Shown: positions 11,497 to 30,743 of the stretch, piece by piece
Numbering within the stretch: position 1 is the first letter of the stretch
Layout: each line of letters starts with the position of its first letter
From: Blastopirellula marina
Lineage (GTDB): Bacteria > Planctomycetota > Planctomycetia > Pirellulales > Thermoguttaceae
Direction: 5' to 3'
NCBI GenBank assembly: GCA_020721965.1
Contig: DYLS01000046.1
Span: 1-33,733, forward strand
DNA: 33,733 nt
Notes under the pieces: model-generated
Told to the model about the DNA's origin: nothing
The model's input: the letters and a program-made list of their open reading frames with translations, nothing else
Databases searched by the model: none
Program-made: the position numbers and the translations under genes

Positions 11497-12990
11497 TCAA
11501 ACAGGACGACTGTCCGAGGCGGTGTCGAAACCACTCCGGCTCCGCGGAAAGAACTTGCACAACATGATCCCACCAAAATAGAGGAGGCACAAGGGTATCG
11601 CCATTAACAACTGGCTGGAAGGGTCGGGAGGAGTCAAGATCGCCGAGACCACAAAGATTACCAAGACCGCCATTTTCCACTGCGAGAAATAATCTCGAAT
11701 CGTGAAAATCCCAATCCTTTCCAAGAACAGCATCACCAGAGGCAACTGGAACCCAATCCCGAAGCCGAGCGGCAGGATGAGCACGAAAGAGAGCCAGTCG
11801 CTGATCCGCGGCTCGAGCTGAATGCCCAGCCATTCGTTGAATTGGAATAAGAACTTGAGCACCGGCTCGAAAACGTAGAGGAAGGCCAAAGCCGCGCCGG
11901 CAAAAAACAGGAGCAGACTGAACGGCAGGAACGTGTAAACGAACTTGCGTTCGTGCCGGTATAAGCCCGCCGCCACGAACAACCAAATCTGAAAGAAGAC
12001 CCACGGCGCGGAAAGGAGGACGCCAACCAATAACGAGGCCTTGATATAAATCGAAAAGGCCTCATGCGCACTCAAGCTCTTGGCCCGCACTCGGGAATCA
12101 TCCTTGGCGGGGCGCCAGGCGAAGATATGGATCAGCTCCTCGGGATTCACTTCCTCGGAATTGAACCCTTTCACCGATGCGGCTGTCGCATCGTAGGAAC
12201 GAATGAGATCGTTGAGACGCTCCAGGTTTTGGCGGGTTGAAGCGGCCAGCAGGTCGGTGGCTTTGGCTAATACCCTGCAATTCTCGCCGGTGACTCGCGT
12301 TTGCCAGTCATCTTGCTCAAGGATTTGGAGGGCGGCGTCAACCTCCGCGCCATTTAGCCCGCGAGCCGTTTCTGCCCCTTGGGCGTGAGCCGAGGGAGCC
12401 GTGCTGCCGGAGGCCGCAATCAACTGGCGCCCCACCTGCAAAAGAAATGCCCGGTCCTCCTCGGCAAGGCTTTTGGCGTCCCCGGTCGCGTTGACTTGCC
12501 GAAGCTTTTCCTGAATGTTGGCCAACTGTTTTAGCAAATCCTGGCATTGCTGGCGTACCAGGCGAAAACTATCCGGAAGCTGAACGAGGATATCCTGCGG
12601 TGAGATCAAATACTCATCGACCAGCATCTGCTGAGAGACGACAAATTCGCCCGCGCCCTCCGCCGAGTATGCGGTTGGCAGTCCCTTCTCGCTCAAGGTC
12701 TTAAGACGGCTCGTAACCTCCTTTTGAGACAAGGTTACGTAATGTTCTGTCAAAGCCTTCTCCAAAGGACCTTGAATCAGTTTGACTACGTGGTTACCCA
12801 ATAACAGCCCTGCCAGAAAACCGATCGCTAATCCGATGATGGCGCGGAAGAGGCACTTTCGCAACTCTTCCAGATGCTCGCCGAAGGTCATCGTGGATTC
12901 ACGAAAGAGGTCTTCGTCCGATTTCGGGGGTGGGAGCAAATGAATCATATGGGTGATATGCGAAACCCAGGCGGGATGGAGAACACTCAC
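11497..12990 (-). CDS. tatC: Twin-arginine translocase subunit TatC with enlarged first periplasmic loop
   Basis: TatC is the polytopic membrane subunit that recognises twin-arginine signals and nucleates the Tat export pore. The N-terminal motif MTFGEHLEELRKCLFRA (34-50) and TM1 (about 46-66) are standard. The later part also matches: HEAFSIYIKASLLVGVLLSAP, FVAAGLYRHERKF with the conserved Glu, and ILTPPDPSSQ. The loop between TM1 and TM2 is about 245 residues, against roughly 50 in the Escherichia coli protein. It contains a helical, Gln/Leu/Glu-rich stretch (about 140-270). The start is uncertain: GTG at 12990, ATG at 12948 or ATG at 12891 are all in frame and none has a good ribosome binding site. 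The 12891 start would begin directly at the conserved motif. Tat-signal proteins elsewhere in the window are natural clients. Confidence 0.93.
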   Translation of the reverse strand: MSVLHPAWVSHITHMIHLLPPPKSDEDLFRESTMTFGEHLEELRKCLFRAIIGLAIGFLAGLLLGNHVVKLIQGPLEKALTEHYVTLSQKEVTSRLKTLSEKGLPTAYSAEGAGEFVVSQQMLVDEYLISPQDILVQLPDSFRLVRQQCQDLLKQLANIQEKLRQVNATGDAKSLAEEDRAFLLQVGRQLIAASGSTAPSAHAQGAETARGLNGAEVDAALQILEQDDWQTRVTGENCRVLAKATDLLAASTRQNLERLNDLIRSYDATAASVKGFNSEEVNPEELIHIFAWRPAKDDSRVRAKSLSAHEAFSIYIKASLLVGVLLSAPWVFFQIWLFVAAGLYRHERKFVYTFLPFSLLLFFAGAALAFLYVFEPVLKFLFQFNEWLGIQLEPRISDWLSFVLILPLGFGIGFQLPLVMLFLERIGIFTIRDYFSQWKMAVLVIFVVSAILTPPDPSSQLLMAIPLCLLYFGGIMLCKFFPRSRSGFDTASDSRPV

Positions 12991-15698: not shown

Positions 15699-17768
15699 AT
15701 GAAGGATTCCTCATCGGAAATGCTTGCCAGTTCCCACACGTCGTTGGGAGACGGCGGGGGGCAAAATCTGCCGCGGCCGGAAACAGCCGCGCGTCCGCCG
15801 TCCGAATCGCCTGGTGAAATCTGGCTGGATGGGGACGTGTTGGCGTGCGCCTGCCTTCAGTGCGGTGCGCCGATGTCGATTCGCCTGTGGCTGGGAATGG
15901 CGGATTGCTGGCGTTGCGGTCTCAGCATCGAACTAACCGAGGAACAAGAACAGCAGGCCATGCGTCTGCTGCAACAGTGGGAAGCCGAAAAGGAGCAAAG
16001 AAGAGCGGAAGCCGCCGCGACCATCCGTCCCACGGTCGCCAGGTCTGGCGCCGCGACGCGACCAAAGGCCGCTTCCTCGGAGACCGCCCCCCCGGAAACA
16101 AGGGCGGCATCGACGGCGGCAAGATCAGGCCGTTGGGCAGCGGAGGTAACCCCAGGGACGGGGCCCGAAATCACACCCTTGCCGCAGGAAGCCCGACCCC
16201 GGGAAATCTCGCGAAGGGATTGGTATCGCAATGCCGCCATTGCCGTTCGCCCACAAACGCTGGCTCGCACTTTCTGGAGCGACTTGCCCGCTTGGCTGAT
16301 CAGCTTGATCTTCCACATGGTGGCTCTCTTGCTTTTGGCCTTACTCACTGCGCCGATCCTCAACGAACCAGATACCATCACGCTCTCCACATCCATCAAT
16401 TACCGAGACTTGGAGGGCGAAGACGGCTTGCTGAAGGAGCGACAAGAGTTACCGACCGATTTCGAGGAAGCTGGACTGGCTGTGCCAGTGGACATTGTCG
16501 CGGACGCACCGCCGGGCGTGGATCAAGTGGAGGTTCCATCCCTGGCCGATCCCGTGCCGCTAACCTCCTCCACCGATCTGCCCAACAACACCATTGCAGC
16601 TCCCATCACCCCGCCGCCAATGGGCGTCATGTTCGCCGGCCGGGATCCCAGCGTGCGAAGCCACCTATTGAAGGAGGGCGGCGGGACGAACGAAACGGAG
16701 GCGGCAGTGGCGCGTGGGCTTCGCTGGCTGGCACGTCATCAAAACAGCGACGGGAGTTGGAGCCTGCACGCGTTTCATCTCGCCCCCGGAGCCGTGGGGG
16801 ATGAGGATGGTCAGGGGGAACAGGCAGACGTGGCCGGAACCGCCCTGGCCCTGTTGCCATTCTTGGGAGCAGGCCAAACACACCGCCAGGGAGAGTACAA
16901 GTCTTTGGTGCTGAAGGGCCTCAATTGGCTAGTAAGCCAGCAAGGCAAAGACGGTGATCTGAGAGGAAACGGCATTGGAGATATGTACGCGCACGGCCAG
17001 GCTACGATCGTGCTCTGCGAAGCCTACGCCATGACCCGGGATCCCCAACTGCGCGAACCCGCTCAGCAGGCCCTGGATTTCATCGTCCAGGCCCAGCACC
17101 CCACGGGTGGTTGGCGATATGACCCTCGGCAGGCGGGAGATACGAGCGTTTTGGGGTGGCAGTTGATGGCCTTGCGCAGCGGGAAAATGGCCTACCTTCG
17201 CGTGCCGGATCGCGTATTCGCAGACGCTTCAAAATACCTCGACAGTGCACAAGCCGACCGCTATGGCAGCCGCTATGCCTATCTGCCGGGCCACGGCGGC
17301 ACCCCCACGATGACGGCTGAGGCGCTCCTGTGTCGCCAATACCTGGGCTGGCCCCGCGAACACCAAGGCTTGAAGGCCGGTGCCTATTACCTCCTTAATG
17401 AGTGTCGGCCAAGCCCACAAAAACTCGATACCTCCATGCCTTGGTTCTATTACATCTACTACGCCACGCAAGTCATGCATCACATGGGTGGCGACTTCTG
17501 GCGGAAATGGAACGACGCCATGAAGGAAACACTGTTGGCCACACAACAGACAACGGGTTCCTTGGCGGGGAGCTGGGATCCTCGCGACCAGTTTGGTCGC
17601 CAAGGTGGCCGCATCTACACCACGGCACTGGCAATCTGCACGCTGGAGGTCTATTACCGTCACATACCACTCTACGATTCCACGCCCGTAATGCTTGTGA
17701 AAACAGCAGAGGCAAACGGAAAGAGTCGCGGTACAGACTCGATGAACGGGTCTCCCGCCCCACAGTAA
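15699..17768 (+). CDS. Membrane protein with zinc ribbon and terpene-cyclase-like toroid
   Basis: The 689-residue protein has three parts. A zinc ribbon lies at 52-73 (Cys52, Cys55, Cys70, Cys73: CLQCGAP and CWRCGL), followed by a charged coiled segment and a Pro/Ala/Thr-rich linker. One transmembrane helix lies at about 197-222 (LPAWLISLIFHMVALLLLALLTAPIL), so the N-terminus is probably cytoplasmic and the rest outside. From about 335 to 665 there is an alpha/alpha toroid of the prenyltransferase/squalene-cyclase type, with repeated GLRWLARHQNSDGSW, LNWLVSQQGKDGDL, ALDFIVQAQHPTGGWRYDP and SYLDSAQ-like units. The DxDD acid motif of hopene cyclases is not obvious, so I do not call it a cyclase. 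The same toroid occurs in non-enzymatic or protease-inhibitor-like proteins. An AAGGGG sequence precedes the ATG. Confidence 0.8.
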   Translation: MKDSSSEMLASSHTSLGDGGGQNLPRPETAARPPSESPGEIWLDGDVLACACLQCGAPMSIRLWLGMADCWRCGLSIELTEEQEQQAMRLLQQWEAEKEQRRAEAAATIRPTVARSGAATRPKAASSETAPPETRAASTAARSGRWAAEVTPGTGPEITPLPQEARPREISRRDWYRNAAIAVRPQTLARTFWSDLPAWLISLIFHMVALLLLALLTAPILNEPDTITLSTSINYRDLEGEDGLLKERQELPTDFEEAGLAVPVDIVADAPPGVDQVEVPSLADPVPLTSSTDLPNNTIAAPITPPPMGVMFAGRDPSVRSHLLKEGGGTNETEAAVARGLRWLARHQNSDGSWSLHAFHLAPGAVGDEDGQGEQADVAGTALALLPFLGAGQTHRQGEYKSLVLKGLNWLVSQQGKDGDLRGNGIGDMYAHGQATIVLCEAYAMTRDPQLREPAQQALDFIVQAQHPTGGWRYDPRQAGDTSVLGWQLMALRSGKMAYLRVPDRVFADASKYLDSAQADRYGSRYAYLPGHGGTPTMTAEALLCRQYLGWPREHQGLKAGAYYLLNECRPSPQKLDTSMPWFYYIYYATQVMHHMGGDFWRKWNDAMKETLLATQQTTGSLAGSWDPRDQFGRQGGRIYTTALAICTLEVYYRHIPLYDSTPVMLVKTAEANGKSRGTDSMNGSPAPQ

Positions 17769-18314: not shown

Positions 18315-18492
18315 TGATGACTGGACTCTTGCAAATTGGGACCACAAGCCCCGCTCTCGGCTCGTGAAGTGGCAGGACGAAGGCGGTCTTTTATGAATGC
18401 TGTTTTCCCTGTTTTCCTGACTTGCCCAGAATTCTGATTTGTCGCCGTATCTCCAGATGGGCATCAAGCAGTTTGCAAAAATCCAGTCATGA
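18315..18492 (-). mobile_element. Family B MITE-like element, copy 2
   Basis: The 178-base element has the best-preserved terminal inverted repeats of the three: TGATGACTGGACTCTTGCAA at the left and, inverted, TCATGACTGGATTTTTGCAA at the right, matching at 17 of these 20 positions. Its interior is inverted relative to the other two copies. On the minus strand it shows CAGAATTCTGGGCAAGTCAGG, AGAGCGGGGCTTGTGG and CCCAATTTGCAAGAGTCCAG, matching the 32.4 kb copy. It encodes no protein. Confidence 0.7.
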
Positions 18493-18532: not shown

Positions 18533-21500
18533 ATGGTATCCTGGAAGGTCTCGTCCTCCTCGCTTTCGCATAGCAATTGGGGTTGGCAACCCTGGGCAGC
18601 AATTTGCATTGTCGCCGCTTCCATTGTTTTCGCAACCGTTGGCCGGGCAGCCGAGCACGAAGTAGTCGGCGTCCTGGCTCTGGCTGTCGATCCAGATGTC
18701 TCGCAACAAATCGGTCTCACGCCAAACCAAATCGCACAAATCAATCAAATTGTCGTTGACCGCGAGGCAGAGGTCCTGGAAATCGCCTCCGACTTTCGAG
18801 GGCTTACTCCGGATGAGCGTTTCGTCAAATTAGCCCCATTCCGAAAGGCAACCGAGGAGCGAGGCCTCGCCATTTTGAGTCCCCAACAACGAGCCAAGCT
18901 GGAACAAGTCCGATTCAAACGCTACGGTCTGTCGCTGCTGGAGGACCCCGTGATCGCGGATCGGCTCCGCATCCCCCCCGAGCAACAAGGCGCCATTCGG
19001 GATGCCGTGCGGGTCCGCGAAGAAAAGCTTCGGCAGTTGGGGACGAATGCCAAACCGGAGGAAATTCAAAAGCTGGATGAATCGCTTGCCGCATTGCTAG
19101 GAGAGCCGCAACGGGCCGCCTTGCGAGCCGTGTTGATGGGGGAATTGCCACCCCCCCCTGATGGCATCTCCTCACCGGCTCCCACAGCTTCCGGGGCGGG
19201 GGGGGCATCCTCGCCGACGGGGCTACCCACGGCTGACGCCTCATCTGAGAGTCCCCAGCCAGCTCCTTCGGACGCCCCGCCCGCATCCACAGCCCCCGGT
19301 GAGCCAGGGCCGGTCACTAATGGCGAAGCATCGTCGGTCCCGCCAGCCGGTACCGACGGCAACGATTCCGTGATGAACGCAGCCAAAGAGCCAATCGCTC
19401 CGCCGCCGAGCTTGCCCGGCACCAACGTTAACCCTCCCGGGGGGCACTCCGTACCTCAACCATCCTCTGGTGCGGAAGCTAGCGAGCAAACGGGAGAGGT
19501 AAGGCCGTCCGGCGGGAGCGTAGCCCCAACTCGCGACTCCGCCGAGGCAGCGCCAAGCCAAACGAACGAGCCTCCGCCACCGAGCGGTGCACCTTCGGCC
19601 CCCGCGGCAGAGCATCCGGAGGGCAGCCATCCGGCGGAAACGCGTCCGATGACGGCACCGCCAGCGGAGACCGCGGAAAGCCCTGTCGCCCAGGCCGCGG
19701 AACCGGCCGCGGTTCCTTCCCCTGTCGCACAACCACACGACACGATCGAAGTGGCTGGAAATGAGCAGTCGCTTCCGAAGGAGGATGTGCGGCTTCGTTT
19801 CAATTTTCGCTACCAGCCCTGGCAAGATGTCCTCAAATGGTTTGCCGAGCAAGCCGGACTCTCGCTCGTGATGGAAACGCCTCCCGCTGGGACCTTCAAC
19901 TATGTGGATGATCGCCAATTCACGCCGTCAGAGGCAATCGACCTGTTGAATAGCGTCCTCTTGATGAAGGGCTACATGCTCGTTCGCAAGGAACGAATGC
20001 TGATCGTCCTGAATGTCGATGACGGCATCCCACCGAATCTTGTCGATACGGTCCTTCCGGAAGAGTTGGACAAACGGGGCGACCACGAATTGGTCAGCAC
20101 GCTCTTCCAATTGCAGCGGATTTCTCCCGAAGCGGCGGAGGCAGAGGTAAAAAAACTGCTGGGTCCCCAGGGGAGCGTTACGGTGCTGCCCACCTCCAAG
20201 CAATTGCTCGTCACCGATACCGCGGGAAAGCTTCGCACGATCCAAAGGGTCATCGCGGCGATCGAGAACCCCTCGGCCGCAGCCAACGACGTCCGCGTAC
20301 TGGAAGTCAATCCTTCCACCGTGGATCAGGTACTGAATATCGTCCGGCAGATGTTCCAAATCCCAGCCGACCAGAATGCCAACGCCGATGGAACATTGCG
20401 TTTCGCACTTGACCCGAGTGGGGCTAGGATGTTGGTAACGGGCACCCCTGATATGCTGGACCGATTCTCCAAGGTGGTGCAGGCCGCCGATCCTACAGCA
20501 TCCGGCAGCGGCGTCGGGATCGAATCGACCCCGCAGCTAGAAGTCTATCCCATAACCACAGCCGATCCCCAAGCCGTGCTCGAGGTCCTGCAAACGCTCC
20601 TCGTTGGCACGCCCGACGTACGATTGGCCATCGACCCCAAGACAGGCAACTTGATTGCATTTGCTCGGCCGGATCAACATGCTACGATCCGGGCTACGCT
20701 CCAGCAACTGCAAGGCGAGGCGGGACAGGTAGAGGTCATCCCGCTCCGCGTGGTTGATCCGCAATTGGCGGTGCTGGCTATCAACAAGTTATTTGGAGTG
20801 ACGGATGGCACGAACGTCAACGCTCCAACGGTGGACGCCGACATCACGACGCGGCAACTCCTGATCCGCGGCAGCCGGGCCCACATCGAGCAGATCCGCG
20901 ATATGCTGAGGAAGATGGGTGAACCGGAATCTGGTGCCAGCTCCGGAAATGTCAACCTGATTCGCACCATACCGATGTCGCCGGAAGTCGCAGAGGCCAT
21001 GCTCCGGGAACTTCAGACGATATGGCCCAACGTGCGAGAAAACCGCCTCCAGGTCATCACCCCGCGTTCCGTCTCGAACGAAGAATCACCAGGTCCATTA
21101 CCCGACCAAAATGGTGCGGAGGGCCAACCTTTGGAGAGGGATCAATTGGAATCTTTCCGGATTCCGCTTGGCGCAGCGGGAATGATCACGCGACGATTAG
21201 TCGGCGGCGTGCCATCCACTCGCGCGGCCACACGATCCGGGACATCCACAACCAACAGCCAGCCGAGCCAGTCCCAATCACCTTCGACCGCCCCACCTCA
21301 ACCGCCTCAAGGTGGATGGGGGCCGCCGGGCGGATTCGGACCACCTGGACCGTGGGGACCGCCGGGCGGGTTTCAGCCGTATTTTCGAAGGGAATCCGAT
21401 GAACACGAACATTCCGAGGAACATCAACACAATTCCGATCGTTCAACATCACTTCCAGAAAACGGCAACCGGGTTACGTCCAGCGACCCATTCCCATTTC

Positions 21501-22855
21501 GGCAGTCGCCAACGCATTTTCAATTCGTGAGTCAGTCGGCCCAGTCGGGGGACTCGTTGCAGGCATCGAATCCGGTGGATATCCCGGCGACAGGATCGAG
21601 CCTGCCCTCCCAAACGACTGGAGATCGAGAGTCCGAAACAGAAACGCCTCCCGAGCCAAACTCCGAGCAGACCACGGAAGTCCCAATTCCGTCACCTAGC
21701 GTCCCGCCGACGCAGGTCCCGCCAGCGCCCCAGTCGTCAGGTCCTCCACCCGTGGTCGTGGCAGTGACGCCAGAGGGGCTGGTCATCGCTTCGCAAGACC
21801 CCGATGCCTTGAATCAACTGGAAGACCTTCTACGTCGCATGGCGACCAGCGAACAATACCCGCAAAGCGGCGGCCCGGAACTGGTCGTGTATTACCTCAA
21901 GCACGCCAGGGCCGAATCGGCCGGCGCTATCCTCGATCAGATTTTGGGCGGCGGAACTCTCACCAATAGTGGATCCTCCAGCGGCTCATTAGTCGGCGAG
22001 ATTGCGCGGGCTGCATTCGGCAACGTGGGCGGCGGGCTGGTTGGAAGCCTACTCGGCAGCGAGGAAGGGAGCACCAGTAGCAGTTCGACCACCGCCAACA
22101 CGATGGCCGGCTCCATTCAAATCACTCCCGATTCCCGCCTGAATGCCCTGGTTGTCCAGGCTTATCCCGAGGACCTCCGGCTTGTGGAAGAGATTCTGCG
22201 TGTCCTGGATCGTTCGGACAGCCCAGAGGACGTGGCAATTCAACCCCGGACGGTTATCATTCCGGTACACAATACCCAAGCAGAAGAAATCGCTCAAATC
22301 CTTCGTAGCGTCTATCAAGATCGGCTTGTCACCGGGGCTGGTCAACAACGTGCTCCTTCGCCCCAGGAGCTGATCCAGTTGTTGCGCGGTGGACGAGGGG
22401 GGAGTGGTGGGAAGTCGCAGTCTCAAGAAGAGCCCCCGAAGATGTCAATCGGTGTGGACAGCCGGACCAATTCGCTCGTGGTATCCGCCCCCGAGCCTCT
22501 ATTAAAAGAGGTACAGGAATTGGTCGAGCAATTAGACCAAAGGGCCGAAACGGAATCTGAGGAAACGACACAGGTCGTTACCTTGGAGCGTGCCAATCCT
22601 CAATCCATTCAGGCAGCGCTGAGCGCTCTGTTGGGGCAGGACGTCCAGATTCGCGGCGGCACCGGCAGCTCCAGCTCCCGCACAGGCACGACGAACACTA
22701 GCACTCCGTTCCGCGGTGCCTTCGGAAGTCCCTTCGGCACGCAAGGCTTCCAGGGATTCCCAGGCGGCTTTTCGCGAGGTTTTCCCGGCTTCAATCGCTC
22801 GTCCGGTAGCGGTTTCACTCGCGGAAGCTCCGGTTCTCGTAGAAGCGGGCGCTGA
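18533..22855 (+). CDS. Giant exported protein with repeated secretin-type modules and no pore domain
   Basis: The 1440-residue product has a signal peptide (hydrophobic core about 19-37, GRAA site near 40). Residues 45-200 are helical and charged, and 202-415 are Pro/Ala/Ser/Glu-rich. An N0/STN-like domain follows at about 417-497 (FRYQPWQDVLKWFAEQAGLSL). Then come about eight alpha/beta modules of the NolW/ring-building kind, recognisable by a strand, an XXPxxVxxVL helix and a LxVxG/A strand. Examples start near 518 (LVSTLFQLQRISPEAAEAEV), 587, 668, 735, 802, 1114, 1237 and 1345. A second low-complexity block separates the fifth and sixth modules (about 846-1076). The protein ends in a Gly/Ser/Arg/Phe-rich tail, and the beta-barrel secretin domain is absent. 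It is probably periplasmic or envelope-bound. No other secretion genes lie beside it. Confidence 0.85.
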   Translation: MVSWKVSSSSLSHSNWGWQPWAAICIVAASIVFATVGRAAEHEVVGVLALAVDPDVSQQIGLTPNQIAQINQIVVDREAEVLEIASDFRGLTPDERFVKLAPFRKATEERGLAILSPQQRAKLEQVRFKRYGLSLLEDPVIADRLRIPPEQQGAIRDAVRVREEKLRQLGTNAKPEEIQKLDESLAALLGEPQRAALRAVLMGELPPPPDGISSPAPTASGAGGASSPTGLPTADASSESPQPAPSDAPPASTAPGEPGPVTNGEASSVPPAGTDGNDSVMNAAKEPIAPPPSLPGTNVNPPGGHSVPQPSSGAEASEQTGEVRPSGGSVAPTRDSAEAAPSQTNEPPPPSGAPSAPAAEHPEGSHPAETRPMTAPPAETAESPVAQAAEPAAVPSPVAQPHDTIEVAGNEQSLPKEDVRLRFNFRYQPWQDVLKWFAEQAGLSLVMETPPAGTFNYVDDRQFTPSEAIDLLNSVLLMKGYMLVRKERMLIVLNVDDGIPPNLVDTVLPEELDKRGDHELVSTLFQLQRISPEAAEAEVKKLLGPQGSVTVLPTSKQLLVTDTAGKLRTIQRVIAAIENPSAAANDVRVLEVNPSTVDQVLNIVRQMFQIPADQNANADGTLRFALDPSGARMLVTGTPDMLDRFSKVVQAADPTASGSGVGIESTPQLEVYPITTADPQAVLEVLQTLLVGTPDVRLAIDPKTGNLIAFARPDQHATIRATLQQLQGEAGQVEVIPLRVVDPQLAVLAINKLFGVTDGTNVNAPTVDADITTRQLLIRGSRAHIEQIRDMLRKMGEPESGASSGNVNLIRTIPMSPEVAEAMLRELQTIWPNVRENRLQVITPRSVSNEESPGPLPDQNGAEGQPLERDQLESFRIPLGAAGMITRRLVGGVPSTRAATRSGTSTTNSQPSQSQSPSTAPPQPPQGGWGPPGGFGPPGPWGPPGGFQPYFRRESDEHEHSEEHQHNSDRSTSLPENGNRVTSSDPFPFRQSPTHFQFVSQSAQSGDSLQASNPVDIPATGSSLPSQTTGDRESETETPPEPNSEQTTEVPIPSPSVPPTQVPPAPQSSGPPPVVVAVTPEGLVIASQDPDALNQLEDLLRRMATSEQYPQSGGPELVVYYLKHARAESAGAILDQILGGGTLTNSGSSSGSLVGEIARAAFGNVGGGLVGSLLGSEEGSTSSSSTTANTMAGSIQITPDSRLNALVVQAYPEDLRLVEEILRVLDRSDSPEDVAIQPRTVIIPVHNTQAEEIAQILRSVYQDRLVTGAGQQRAPSPQELIQLLRGGRGGSGGKSQSQEEPPKMSIGVDSRTNSLVVSAPEPLLKEVQELVEQLDQRAETESEETTQVVTLERANPQSIQAALSALLGQDVQIRGGTGSSSSRTGTTNTSTPFRGAFGSPFGTQGFQGFPGGFSRGFPGFNRSSGSGFTRGSSGSRRSGR

Positions 22856-23436: not shown

Positions 23437-23509
23437 GGCGCTGTAGCCAAGTGGCTAAGGCAGTGGATTGCAAATCCACCATTCGCCGGTTCGAATCCGG
23501 CCGGCGCCT
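23437..23509 (+). tRNA. tRNA-Cys (anticodon GCA)
   Basis: The 73-base cloverleaf is complete. The acceptor stem GGCGCTG pairs with CGGCGCC, with one G-U pair. The D-arm contains AGCCAAGTGGCTAAGGC. The anticodon stem-loop TGGATTGCAAATCCA carries GCA, and the T-arm is GCCGG-TTCGAAT-CCGGC. The discriminator base is T (U73), the expected cysteine identity element. CCA is not encoded. No downstream copy of the tRNA 3' end was noticed, so there is no evidence of an integrated island using this gene. Confidence 0.97.
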
Positions 23510-23752
23510 CTTGATCTCTTCAACAATTTGGATCTTTTCAACAATCCAAGCCCCTGCCAGAATCTCCCGGCCCCGGGTCGAAGCCTCGAATCAGCCAATC
23601 GTACCTAGAACGCTTCCCGGAACTGACAAAAGGGAAGCCGACACCGGAGCCTACTCGATATCGAACTCGCCGGGGGGTTGATTCTCGACCGTGCGTGCAG
23701 ATATCGGCTGATTTGGATGGCGATCCAGCCCGAATAGGGAGGTGAGAACGAA

Positions 23753-26196: not shown

Positions 26197-27534
26197 ATGG
26201 ATGAAAACGGCCGACCCCTACGAAACCAGTGGCCTTGGCAGTGGGGCCTATTACTTGCCCTGGCTCTGTCCATACGCTTAGCAGCGGCAGCGGCCTGGGA
26301 ATGTCGGTATCAAGGAGGGCTGGTCTTTGGCGACAGTGTCAGTTATTGGCACCTGGCAAAGGCGATCGCCCACGGCGAAACCTATCAATACGGCGACTAC
26401 GGTCGTGTTTTTCGCACGCCCGGTTATCCTATGCTCCTTTCGCCCCTGTTTTGGCTCTTTGGGGAATCGCCGCCTTATTTCGCAGCTCGTGCGATAGGCG
26501 CCGTGCTGGGGACGCTGGGGGCCGTTGCGACGGGCTGGCTCGCCACGTTGCTTTGGGACAGCCGAACGGGTTGGTATGCCGCCTTGCTAGCGGCCATTCA
26601 CCCAGAATGCGTGCTGTCATCAGTGCCCATCCTCAGCGAGGCCGCCTTTTGTCCAATCTGGGTGGTTCATCTGGCGTGCCTGGCCGCCATGTGGCGATGT
26701 GCAGGGACCCGGCAAGCATGGACTTGGGCGACGGGCGCGGGGGTCACAGCAGGCTTGGCAATCCTGATCCGGCCAAGTGCCTTGCTGTGGCCGCCTCTAT
26801 TGTTTCTTGTCGCTATGATGAGGGATTTTAGGGCCAAGAGCCTCGCTCCGTTGGCGTTGTCCACGGGATTGATCGTCGTCGTGTTGCTGCCGTGGTGGAT
26901 TCGGAACTATCGGGCTACCGGACACTGGATTCCCACGACAACTCAGGTGGGCGCAAGTCTGTACGATGGCTGCAATCCTCATGCGAACGGCGCGAGCAAC
27001 ATGGACTTTGTGACAGCCGCGATACAAGCGACCAAGAGCAGTTTGGGAGATAGAGGTAAGCATCCCGGGATCGTAGAGATCGAGGTCGATCATCGCCTGC
27101 GCAACGAAGCATTACGCTGGGTGGCGGCCAATCCCTTCCAGTTCGTCCGTTTGGCAGGCGTCAAACTGCGACGGTTTTGGAGTCCCGTGCCTAACGAAGG
27201 GACCTTCAACCGCTTTCCCTTCAACCTGATCCTGGCAACGGCCTTCTTGAGCGTCATTGCATTGGCCGTGACAGGGCTGATCCGAGGCACGCTGGGCTGG
27301 GCTGCCTTTTTCGTCTGCTGGTTGCCCACCATCTATTTCACTCTCTTGCACATGGTTTTCGTAAGCTCTGTGCGTTATCGTCAACCTGTGATGTTCGGTC
27401 TGATCGCTGCCGCGGCGCCGGTTCTTGCTAGCGCTATAGATGTCCTCAGGTCGAGGTGGGGGATCGCTTTGGCGAACGGCGGCCTCTCTCGATCCGACGA
27501 TAAACACAAGGCAAGGAAGCACAAATCGCGGTGA
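26197..27534 (+). CDS. GT39/ArnT-like membrane glycosyltransferase
   Basis: The 445-residue protein has roughly nine to ten hydrophobic segments. Its first outer loop carries an acidic motif in GLVFGDSVSYWHLAKAIAHG (Asp46). This is the layout of GT-C enzymes such as protein O-mannosyltransferases and ArnT, which transfer sugar from a lipid-phosphate donor on the outer face of the inner membrane. FRTPGYPMLLSPLFWLFG is the expected second conserved stretch. The stop overlaps the start of the AsmA-like gene by GTGA, implying translational coupling. The ATG at 26197 has no strong ribosome binding site. The acceptor (lipid A, protein or glycan) cannot be told from sequence. Confidence 0.82.
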   Translation: MDENGRPLRNQWPWQWGLLLALALSIRLAAAAAWECRYQGGLVFGDSVSYWHLAKAIAHGETYQYGDYGRVFRTPGYPMLLSPLFWLFGESPPYFAARAIGAVLGTLGAVATGWLATLLWDSRTGWYAALLAAIHPECVLSSVPILSEAAFCPIWVVHLACLAAMWRCAGTRQAWTWATGAGVTAGLAILIRPSALLWPPLLFLVAMMRDFRAKSLAPLALSTGLIVVVLLPWWIRNYRATGHWIPTTTQVGASLYDGCNPHANGASNMDFVTAAIQATKSSLGDRGKHPGIVEIEVDHRLRNEALRWVAANPFQFVRLAGVKLRRFWSPVPNEGTFNRFPFNLILATAFLSVIALAVTGLIRGTLGWAAFFVCWLPTIYFTLLHMVFVSSVRYRQPVMFGLIAAAAPVLASAIDVLRSRWGIALANGGLSRSDDKHKARKHKSR

Positions 27535-30500
27535 AAAGATTTCGCAAGCCCAAAAGACCGATTTTGACTGTACTCAGGTGGGCGATCGTCCTCGTGCCAA
27601 TGCTGGCAGGAGGCACGTATCTGTATCTTTCCCAACAAGCAGATTCCCTTCTTCGAAGCGAGGTCCAACGCATATTTTCGGCCCGGTACCCGAACTTGGA
27701 CTTGCAGCTCCGTTCTGCCACTTGGATTTCCGGTGAGGGCATACAACTCAAAGGCATTCGCATACGCGATCCACAATTCGCGGGCGAAACGAGCGAGATT
27801 TGCGAAATAGAGGAGGTTTTCTTCGGCTTTTCGGCCACGCTAGAGCGCCTCTGGAAGGGTGACGTCATCATCGAAGCAGTCCGCGTCCGCCGACCGCGAA
27901 TCCGAGCCGTTCAGGTCGGCGCGAGGACGTGGAATTTTTCGACCCTTTTCCCGTTGCCACAATTTAGCCGTAGCCCTCCCCCGATCGAAATCGAAGATGG
28001 AGTGGTGGACGTCGCGCCTCGAGGTGTGCCCCAAGGCGGTCTTACGTTCCGCGACGTCCAGTTGCGCATTTGGGGGGCTGCCGATGGTCCTTCCCTGAGC
28101 GATGCCGACGTTTCCCACAGGCGATATCTTCGTGGCACTTTCACCGGCGACTTTCTGCGGCGAGTCAACATCGAAGGGACCATCCATCCCCACACGCTTC
28201 AGATGAACTTGCAAGGGACGGTCGACTCTCTCGATGTCTCGCCGGAGTTTTGGGCCTCGTTGCCGGAGGGGATATCCCGGCGAATCGGCCTGCTGGCGAA
28301 TCTTCGCGCTCAAGCGGCATTCGGATTCCGCGTGTTCTATGACGCCTCCCAACCTTTGCGATTCGATGTTGCTGGACAATTCCAACAAGGGCGTTGGGAC
28401 GCCGCGAGGATACCTCATCCCCTGACGGATATCGCCGGCCGATTTCATATCACCGACCAGACCGTGCGGTTGGACGATCTCTTGGCGGTCTCGGGAGCAA
28501 CTCAAATTCAGATTCGCCAGGTTGAGGCTCGTTATAACGAAACGATCGAGCCTCTGCTCCTGGATGCGAGCATCACGAATTTGCAGATGGAGCCAAGTCT
28601 CGTCCCCCTCCTGCCGGCCAGCTTGCAGCGGCAATGGACGAAGTTCTTTCCTTCTGGAGCGATCAATCTGACGACGCGTCTAGAATGGGTGTCGGGTCGC
28701 CCCCAAGGTTCTATCCGCGCGGACTTGTTGGACGTCTCTTTTGCGTATGCCGCGTTTCCTTACCGACTGCAACAGGCGCAAGGATCGCTGCGACTGGATC
28801 TGGCGGCGGACCGCCTGGACGTGAATGTCACGGCACGGGCCGACGATCAACCGCTGGAAATACGCGGCTATGTCTTGCATCCCCTGGCGGTTTCGCAAAC
28901 TCAGCTCTCCGTCACGGGACGAGGTATTCCACTCACGGACCGCCTGTTCGCGGCGGTCCTCAATCCCCGCACGCAAGAGCTGCTCCGCGCACTTCACGCC
29001 ACCGGCAAGATCGACGTGTGGCTGGGAGTCAGCCAGGATGTGCCGGGAATACCCGCACGCACTCAAATCCAGATCGGCTTGCAGCAATGCGCCATCAAGT
29101 TCGCGGGCTTTCCCTTCGCCATTTCCAATATTACTGGGCGAATGTTAAAACGGGAAAATGTTTGGGAGTTCCAAGACCTGGCAGGCACGCACGGCCACTC
29201 CCAAATCTACGCGTTTGGAAACCTCGTCCCCGGTACCAATGGCTCCACTTTTTCGCTACGGTTCAGTGGGCGACAAATTCGCCTGAACAGCGACCTGCGC
29301 GAGGCCCTTCCGAAAGAGGCCTGGCGCCAAGTGTGGGACAATCTGCGACCCGAGGGAACCGTCGATCTGGCCGACGGATTGTATGTCTATCGCACCTCTG
29401 GGGGTAACGAGATCCGCTTCTCCGCCACGCCGAGCGATGACCGCACCGCGTTGGAACCGGTTGCGTTTCCCTACCGGCTGGAGAACCTCCGCGGCACGCT
29501 CCGATTCGAAAATGGGGCCGTTTTTGTGGACAATCTTCGCGGCCGGCATGGGAGCTGTTCGTTCCAGACGCGAGCGTCCTGCGAAACCATGCCAGACGGC
29601 GGCTGGCGTTTGCGGCTGGACGATCTGTGGATGGACCGCCTGACGGTCGATCGGAGTCTTCTAACGGCCCTGCCCGAATTGGTGAGTAACGGGTTATCTC
29701 GGCTCAACCTGGGCGGTCCCATCAATGTGCGTGGGACCTTGGAAATCGGCCAGCTACCACGAGCCGAGAGTGCCCCTCTGCCCGCCGGGACCCGTTTGTC
29801 TTCGCCGCCGCGCGTGGCATGGAGCGCTCTGGCGACTTTGGCCGGCAATTCGGCAGGTACCTTGGTACCCCTGCAAAACATCCACGGCAATATCGCCCTT
29901 CGCGGCTTGTACACGCCGGACAAGTTCACGTCGGATGGGGACTTGGACATCGATTCGTTTTCCTTCCGCGGCATCCAGTGCACGGATCTCCGCGGCCCTT
30001 TTCGCCTGGAAAACGACCGGCTTCTGTTGGGTCATGTCATCGAACCGGCCGCGGGCGCCGAACAGCCCGCCCGCCCTCTGGAAGCAAAGGTTTGGGACGG
30101 TATCGTCCGCGGCGGCGGATGGATTCGATTTCACCCCCTACCGGAGTACCAATTCTCCGCATCGCTGAGCCAGGTAAATCTTGCTGCGGCAGCGAGGGAT
30201 CAGCAAATCGATGCCCCGAATCTAAGCGGCAAGATCTACGCGGCAGTCTCTGTTCAAGGTAAGGGGGGCGATATTCAGGGACTAACGGGCTACGGTAATT
30301 TCCAGTTAAAGGACGCGGATATTTACGAGTTGCCGCTGGTTGTGGCTTTATTAAAGATTCTCAGCGTGCGGCGGCCGGATCGCACTGCCTTTCGGGAATG
30401 CGAGGGCCAATTCCAAATCGCTGGCAGTCACCTCTACTGGGATCGACTCATGTTTCGCGGCGATGCCGTCAGCCTGGTCGGACAAGGTGAAATGGATTTT

Positions 30501-30743
30501 GATACCCGTTTGCGACTTACCTTTCGCTCCCTTTTAGGACCGAACGAAATGAAAATTCCGGTCGTAAAGGAGGTCTTTCGTGGTGCAAGCGAGCAGATCA
30601 TCCTGATTCACGTGGGCGGAACATTGAAGAACCCGGAGGTGCGACGAGATCCCCTGCCTGGCGTCGGTCAGGCCTTGCAGTGGATCGGCGGTAGAGAGCA
30701 GCAGCCATCGCGGTTGCGAGAGGTTTTGCCTTTGATACGATAA
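27531..30743 (+). CDS. AsmA-like (AsmA/YhdP/TamB superfamily) envelope protein
   Basis: The 1070-residue protein has a basic N-terminus and one transmembrane helix (about 10-32), then a very long region of short beta strands and amphipathic segments expected to lie in the periplasm. The C-terminal part (about 925-1055: GYGNFQLKDADIYELPLVVALLKIL, the FRGDAVSLVGQGEMDF stretch and IILIHVGGTLKNPEV) matches the AsmA-like C-terminal region. Members of this superfamily form bridge-like grooves that carry phospholipids between inner and outer membranes. The GTG start at 27531 overlaps the glycosyltransferase stop codon by four bases, so the two proteins are probably produced together. No frameshift or internal stop is seen. 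A role in lipid or outer-membrane assembly follows from family knowledge, not from direct evidence here. Confidence 0.85.
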   Translation: MKRFRKPKRPILTVLRWAIVLVPMLAGGTYLYLSQQADSLLRSEVQRIFSARYPNLDLQLRSATWISGEGIQLKGIRIRDPQFAGETSEICEIEEVFFGFSATLERLWKGDVIIEAVRVRRPRIRAVQVGARTWNFSTLFPLPQFSRSPPPIEIEDGVVDVAPRGVPQGGLTFRDVQLRIWGAADGPSLSDADVSHRRYLRGTFTGDFLRRVNIEGTIHPHTLQMNLQGTVDSLDVSPEFWASLPEGISRRIGLLANLRAQAAFGFRVFYDASQPLRFDVAGQFQQGRWDAARIPHPLTDIAGRFHITDQTVRLDDLLAVSGATQIQIRQVEARYNETIEPLLLDASITNLQMEPSLVPLLPASLQRQWTKFFPSGAINLTTRLEWVSGRPQGSIRADLLDVSFAYAAFPYRLQQAQGSLRLDLAADRLDVNVTARADDQPLEIRGYVLHPLAVSQTQLSVTGRGIPLTDRLFAAVLNPRTQELLRALHATGKIDVWLGVSQDVPGIPARTQIQIGLQQCAIKFAGFPFAISNITGRMLKRENVWEFQDLAGTHGHSQIYAFGNLVPGTNGSTFSLRFSGRQIRLNSDLREALPKEAWRQVWDNLRPEGTVDLADGLYVYRTSGGNEIRFSATPSDDRTALEPVAFPYRLENLRGTLRFENGAVFVDNLRGRHGSCSFQTRASCETMPDGGWRLRLDDLWMDRLTVDRSLLTALPELVSNGLSRLNLGGPINVRGTLEIGQLPRAESAPLPAGTRLSSPPRVAWSALATLAGNSAGTLVPLQNIHGNIALRGLYTPDKFTSDGDLDIDSFSFRGIQCTDLRGPFRLENDRLLLGHVIEPAAGAEQPARPLEAKVWDGIVRGGGWIRFHPLPEYQFSASLSQVNLAAAARDQQIDAPNLSGKIYAAVSVQGKGGDIQGLTGYGNFQLKDADIYELPLVVALLKILSVRRPDRTAFRECEGQFQIAGSHLYWDRLMFRGDAVSLVGQGEMDFDTRLRLTFRSLLGPNEMKIPVVKEVFRGASEQIILIHVGGTLKNPEVRRDPLPGVGQALQWIGGREQQPSRLREVLPLIR

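Follow-up and report, generated by a model that had tools for sequence, protein, structure and literature searches.

A barrel-less array of secretin-type modules

We analysed a stretch of 33,733 nucleotides from the planctomycete Blastopirellula marina (contig DYLS01000046.1, hereafter the window), in which one gene encodes an array of secretin-type modules without a detectable outer-membrane barrel (Table 1). Its open reading frame (ORF) runs uninterrupted to the stop at 22855 and was read from the ATG at 18533; a TTG at 18422 is an alternative possible start. Six stretches of the protein matched the Secretin_N family of Pfam (PF03958, E-value of 4 × 10−64), and there was a weak match to the GspD N0 family (E-value of 0.0016–0.003), below the cut-off. 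The barrel family PF00263 was matched neither in the whole protein nor in 57 tail-trimmed rows of an alignment of relatives that includes the window protein. At an E-value of 0.01, the N0 family was matched in 28 of 57 rows. This alignment took in 57 of 59 rows, L159 and L161 being left out for size; a further alignment took in 30 of 37 rows.

From N0 onwards, the protein consists of N0, four modules, one split module, two modules and one half module, which makes 'about eight' ring modules, as given in a preliminary description of the DNA, a fair count. The two proline-rich blocks and the Gly/Ser/Arg tail in place of a barrel, both named there, are likewise present, and the profile search against secretin models that it had recommended matched Secretin_N in the protein and found no C-terminal barrel. 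The second proline-rich block sits inside the fifth module and is 227 amino acids long in the window protein, compared to 48–320 amino acids across the 57 rows. Joined across this block, the two halves of the module scored 12.3 bits against the module profile, versus 7.8 bits for the first half alone, 8.6 for the halves in reversed order and at most 9.2 for 200 shuffled sequences.

Table 1. Features of the array gene, with positions in the window and the evidence for each feature.
Feature	Position	Strand	Evidence
Whole gene, barrel-less N0-bearing secretin N-module array	18533..22855	+	1440 amino acids from ATG; open frame, six Secretin_N, no barrel
Signal-peptide-like N-terminus (hydrophobic stretch, then GRA|AE)	18533..18649	+	By eye from sequence
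All-helical domain, relative of small LTXXQ protein of type II secretion cluster	18650..19159	+	AlphaFold2 pLDDT 91.6; phmmer 5.8 × 10−10 to L209:12678-13538
Proline-rich block 1, poorly conserved linker	19160..19762	+	Sequence; low occupancy and identity, n = 18 aligned proteins
N0 domain, within best conserved stretch	19778..20032	+	AlphaFold2, VIA-align versus 4jtm; boundaries approximate
Module M1 (Secretin_N)	20102..20278	+	Profile above cut-off; AlphaFold2
Module M2 (Secretin_N)	20291..20491	+	27.7 bits alone, slightly below 28.2 cut-off; AlphaFold2
Module M3 (Secretin_N)	20540..20710	+	Profile above cut-off; AlphaFold2
Module M4 (Secretin_N)	20729..20926	+	Profile above cut-off; AlphaFold2
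M5a, first half (β-α-β) of split module	20948..21064	+	AlphaFold2 secondary structure; weak profile support
Proline-rich block 2, insertion within module M5	21065..21748	+	pLDDT mostly <50
M5b, second half (β-β-α) of split module	21749..21850	+	AlphaFold2; conserved among aligned relatives
Module M6 (Secretin_N with long Gly/Ser loop)	21887..22216	+	Profile above cut-off; AlphaFold2
Module M7 (Secretin_N, best single match)	22250..22546	+	60.2 bits; AlphaFold2
M8a, dangling first half module	22568..22651	+	Found in 57/57 rows
Gly/Ser/Arg tail, net positive	22652..22852	+	Composition kept in 58 complete relatives

Predicted structure

An AlphaFold2 model was made for 963 residues with the alignment of 57 rows. 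The modules were predicted to fold as β-α-β-β-α, with a predicted local distance difference test (pLDDT) above 90 in N0 and most module cores. This value was at least 90 for 410 of the 963 residues, and the proline-rich insertion was modelled with low confidence. The predicted template modelling score was 0.36; therefore, the model can be relied on fairly well for the folds of the modules, but not for their arrangement. The top Foldseek match was the secretin PulD (6hcg, E-value of 1.4 × 10−10). Aligning the model to PulD with VIA-align gave a Z-score of 14.4 at a root-mean-square deviation (rmsd) of 28.9 over 289 residues, several domains being set at differing angles, and N0 by itself aligned to the N0 domain of GspD (4jtm) with a Z-score of 12.1 and an rmsd of 2.1 over 80 residues. 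Judged by these predicted structures, the modules are secretin N-type folds of the N0/N1 type, in agreement with the ring-building folds first proposed.

The helical domain near the N-terminus matched the LTXXQ family (PF07813) with an E-value of 0.033, below the cut-off. Its relative from a type II secretion cluster, L209:12678-13538, lies above that cut-off (26.8 versus 24.3) and is a small LTXXQ-type helical protein adjoining gspE. No match to the helical domain was found among PDB folds at an E-value of 0.001, and the best VIA-align result (Z-score of 7.3, rmsd of 3.3 over 83 residues, 5io8) is within the noise for helical models. Because the fold search gave no match above noise, a Spy/CpxP fold for this domain is a guess.

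Conservation and expansion of the array

Searching contigs with the single protein yielded nothing; a profile scan found 113 relatives, 80 of which were kept, and the 58 of these 80 frames that were complete and shorter than 1600 amino acids were used further. N0 to M4 is the best conserved stretch, and the proline-rich blocks vary freely. The last 60 residues of the 58 complete relatives are 40% glycine and 13% arginine with a net charge of +3 to +10 in all of them, and the C-terminal residue is an arginine in 48. The lack of a detected barrel and the terminal half module might suggest that the protein is a decayed secretin, functionless by itself after loss of the barrel. We regard this as extremely improbable, considering that all 58 complete relatives below 1550 amino acids keep six (n = 56) or seven (n = 2) modules, as counted with our own profile, which leaves N0, split and half modules uncounted. 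The stretch from N0 to M5a is also 31–69% identical to the window protein over 16 relatives. Both the half module and the basic tail are likewise conserved.

In other relatives the array is far longer. Eleven distinct frames, some of them ended by contig edges, contain 16 to 48 modules, and the longest array found has 69 modules in a frame of 5394 amino acids (G018:C113, L063-L065). The long relatives that we read (G018, G013 and G019) have both ends as in the window protein and an expanded middle. The modules of the G018 frame have a median spacing of 66 residues, and pairs that are three, five and eight modules apart reach identities of 91, 86 and 88%, respectively, which would be a sign of block duplication. 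No barrel was found by Pfam in the three long arrays scanned, which do not include that of G018, and no type II secretion genes were found at an E-value of 10−5 on the 32.6-kb contig G018:C113.

In a sample of 294 genomes from the phylum, 22 matched the array at an E-value of 10−40, one of which (G214) lies outside the class. A typical planctomycete array gene was also found on a record titled 'Candidatus Nealsonbacteria' (L111, JABMRB010001118.1), probably a contig that was assigned to the wrong bin.

Fusion to a barrel secretin in family f110

In several genomes of family f110, which we guess to be the Gemmata family, an array match and a secretin match fall within one frame. Six f110 proteins of 2138–2221 amino acids were fetched. 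In all of them, the region running from N0 through the half module matches the array profile (roughly residues 90–980), and the region behind it a secretin profile with barrel (roughly residues 1020–2130). The array profile matched as one stretch in three of these proteins and as three colinear stretches in the other three. At the junction, a half module leads into a Gly-rich stretch, containing Arg in most cases, which is followed by a linker that is less regular and then by another half module.

Pieces in the source genome

Following the suggestion in the preliminary description to look for a separately encoded pore protein, a barrel search of the whole source genome gave five places, on contigs C89, C244, C226, C154 and C53, and none on the contig of the window (C31). 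The secretin on C89, P0002, has 1316 amino acids and scores above the GspD cut-off of NCBIfam (383.7 versus 351.35). It contains nine Secretin_N stretches by Pfam, its modules being homologous to those of the array. Unlike the array, P0002 has a barrel and does not match the N0 part of the array profile, its matches to that profile beginning at model position 177, past N0. The absence of N0 was judged with the array profile; the Pfam N0 family was dropped as a test because it misses N0 in a fused protein that matches the array profile from N0. P0002 is very probably the separately encoded pore protein. The window protein ends in a half module and a Gly/Arg tail, as seen at the f110 junction; therefore, the two genes of the source organism correspond to the two parts of one f110 gene. 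Most array-bearing genomes of the class, f110 excepted, seem to have the same split into two genes.

A core cluster on contig C107 encodes LTXXQ, GspE, F, G, H, I, J-like, K and PilM-like proteins and a membrane protein, and barrel and Secretin_N searches of this contig found no secretin. In the one-contig genome G002, the pieces are likewise split over three distant places, at 3.34, 1.36 and 3.83 Mb.

Completion of a half module in trans was considered for the array and the secretin. The half module M8a together with the second half from the secretin scored 24.6 bits, compared to 14.0 for the secretin's own halves and 16.8 for M8a with M5b. As the scores are nearly additive (12.4 + 11.7), this does not demonstrate completion in trans.

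In this genome, contigs G000:C7 (L028:1-2444, minus strand) and G000:C173 (L027:3-764, plus strand) probably hold the ends of a second barrel-less N0/Secretin_N paralogue split across contigs, the C7 part spanning two overlapping frames; an intact relative of 1064 amino acids is found at L090:7704-10898. The match on G000:C53 (L032:5654-9946) is an unusual frame of 1430 amino acids whose C-terminal end partly matches the secretin barrel.

Linkage and co-occurrence with type II secretion genes

We determined how the array is distributed relative to the type II secretion system (T2SS) in 198 genomes of the class, which were searched for the array, the secretin and a gspK-like gene; the draw was assumed to be the same from the equal settings and shared handles. 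The array and the gspK-like gene were both present in 129 genomes and both missing from 56, with four genomes having the array only and nine gspK only. The secretin search, for which the C89 protein was used, hit almost the same set of genomes as the array profile (125 with both, 8 with the array only, 9 with the secretin only and 56 with neither). Most of the genomes with gspK only belong to f110, and G330 among them holds a fused array under the search threshold. All three genes are absent from G479, G370 and G324, single members of families that otherwise have them, as well as from the listed members of families f8 and f109. With the same E-value limit, the gspK model matched in just 2 of 14 control genomes.

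The genes are also often close together. With any copy counted, long arrays and paralogues included, and f110 left out, the array and gspK are no more than 25 kb apart in 52 of 95 genomes, the array and the secretin in 37 of 93, and the array and either of them in 57 of 97, among the matches listed. By chance, about 0.8% would be expected for genes present once in a genome of 6.5 Mb. In G328, some 170 bases separate the array frame from the secretin frame, and G364 has a tandem of an array-like barrel-less protein (1104 amino acids), an array (1351 amino acids) and a secretin (1403 amino acids). Between array and secretin in two split loci, G376 and G355, the best NCBIfam matches of the genes are GspE (E-value of 2 × 10−187), GspF (3 × 10−104), GspG, GspH/XpsH, GspI/XpsI, GspJ (weak) and GspK. 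Also encoded there are a PilM/GspL-like protein, a membrane protein of no assigned family, a small helical protein of the LTXXQ type and an EF-hand protein. Gene clustering found the same T2SS-like genes in further loci. The array is encoded with GspE, GspF and GspG–K in relatives, and not in the window itself. EF-hand proteins recur adjoining planctomycete T2SS genes (L209:13727-15163, L188:9366-10727 and others).

A comparison of 18 neighbourhoods had shown no widely shared gene, as if the array gene were a loner; the larger regions and the secretin and gspK searches overturned this. Some gene clusters in that comparison were common to L071 and L082, and those of L071 matched T2SS-cluster genes.

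The preliminary description had noted that no secretion genes are adjacent and had proposed that the protein could form a ring or scaffold in the periplasm, independently of type II secretion. The first point holds: no gene for an outer-membrane secretion apparatus was seen among the 16 larger ORFs of the window, array included, that were scanned with Pfam, nine of them also with NCBIfam. A phmmer search of T2SS representatives against window frames of at least 100 amino acids gave no match at an E-value of 10−5, although this search is coarse, as the secretin representative missed the array itself at this threshold. This empty neighbourhood, the separation of the pieces in the source organism and the four array-positive genomes without a gspK match at the threshold would fit an independent ring. 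The second point is countered by the fusion to a barrel secretin, by the linkage in 57 of 97 genomes and by the joint presence of the array with the gspK-like gene and a GspD-type secretin and their joint absence in several families, so that we find independence from type II secretion very unlikely.

The array as the probable half of a two-gene secretin

We think it likely that a T2SS secretin is divided here over two genes and that the array, as its periplasmic half with N0, docks the pore-bearing partner to the inner membrane. The array protein would be exported to the periplasm. By analogy with known secretins, the pore and upper N modules would sit on the partner P0002, with the N0 base and lower rings coming from the array. 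Stacked as rings, N0 and M1–M7 would lengthen the channel entrance towards the inner-membrane platform (GspE/F, PilM/GspL-like protein and pseudopilins), and loss of the array would be expected to affect secretion. The proline-rich blocks may act as linkers that provide flexibility. The dangling half module and Gly/Arg tail may mark the point of continuity in fused relatives and may be the contact site of the halves, and arrays with 16–69 modules could be longer versions that bridge a wider periplasm. In Klebsiella, the N0 ring forms the base of the secretin and binds the HR domain of GspC, and the whole complex extends into the periplasm by about 20 nm (PMC6882859).

Linkage and co-occurrence would be the same for an accessory T2SS scaffold, an extended single chain that is placed on the platform or secretin base outside the channel wall. 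Such a scaffold can be likened to the helpers GspB and TsaP. The separate gene in split genomes, the long disordered linkers and the basic tail are consistent with this role. Conversely, each of the six f110 proteins joins array and secretin in a single chain, with the array in the position expected of N domains, and the array modules are of the N0/N1 type. We therefore consider an accessory scaffold unlikely.

Several observations weigh against a two-gene secretin. The structure model does not give the packing of the modules. In the source organism, the array, secretin and core cluster are unlinked, and the partner secretin, which contains a divergent first half module itself, does not need the array to be complete. 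No GspC, the usual partner of N0, was identified, although no search was aimed at it. Among the matches listed, no linkage was seen in 40 of 97 genomes, and T2SS genes flank only 3 of the 11 long-array loci that were fetched, some of the other eight ending at contig edges. The four array-positive genomes lacking a gspK match at the threshold count here too, and the gspK model gave no match above its cut-off in the 198 genomes. Most T2SS gene names rest on matches below the cut-off; of those in G376 and G355, only GspG is above the NCBIfam cut-off, and GspE is close (623.8 versus 630.25). Finally, related genomes are not independent, so no Fisher p values were used.

The array resembles the secretins GspD, PulD and XcpQ in its N0 and repeated Secretin_N folds, in having them as best structural matches and, in many relatives, in being encoded within or close to a T2SS cluster. 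It differs from them in that no barrel was detected, the N part is on its own gene and the Secretin_N modules number seven and a half rather than three, with proline-rich insertions, a helical N-terminal domain and a Gly/Arg tail added. To our knowledge, known bacterial secretins carry N0 and the pore on one chain, and those of the GspD family form rings of 12–15 subunits. DotD of type IVB secretion has a secretin N-domain-like fold without a barrel; unlike the array, it is a single small domain of a different system. Some protist mitochondria have free-standing GspDN1–GspDN3 proteins, even half modules, beside a barrel-only GspD, with a two-hybrid signal reported between GspD and GspDN1 (PMC8134430). 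Those mitochondrial proteins are single modules or halves, whereas the array is long, N0-bearing and bacterial. In literature searches for planctomycete T2SS, split secretins and barrel-less arrays, we found no report of such a bacterial split secretin or of such arrays.

If the array and P0002 are two halves of one secretin, a division between an N0 protein and a pore protein would be widespread, and arrays of 6 to 69 modules would make the periplasmic part of the channel modular and extendable. Some 17 modules are found over both proteins of the source organism, and 69 in one array of a relative. If each ring adds about 3 nm, a 69-module tube would be perhaps 200 nm long. It is possible, if quite unlikely, that the T2SS channel is an extendable trans-periplasmic tube with a length set by module number, which together with the pseudopilus forms the core of planctomycete crateriform structures. 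These complexes of the outer membrane bear pili-like fibres and were observed to hold the two membranes together in the manner of press studs. The array system would give a candidate for them, a tie that is conjecture. Crateriform structures have been described as membrane connections specific to planctomycetes, with fibres of 12 nm, and the uptake of macromolecules through them as speculation (PMC5394234).

Other genes in the window

Directly upstream of the array gene, the frame at 15699–17768 encodes squalene-cyclase-like alpha toroid repeats with a Cys-rich N-terminal end. The inner-membrane export protein TatC is encoded at 11497–12990; this protein of 497 amino acids matches mainly from about residue 285, with a second short matching stretch, and seems to contain a long extra segment. 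Downstream of the array are a tRNA-Cys (gca) at 23437–23510 and, at 27531–30743, a protein of 1070 amino acids with weak similarity to AsmA/YhdP, all matches being below the Pfam cut-offs.

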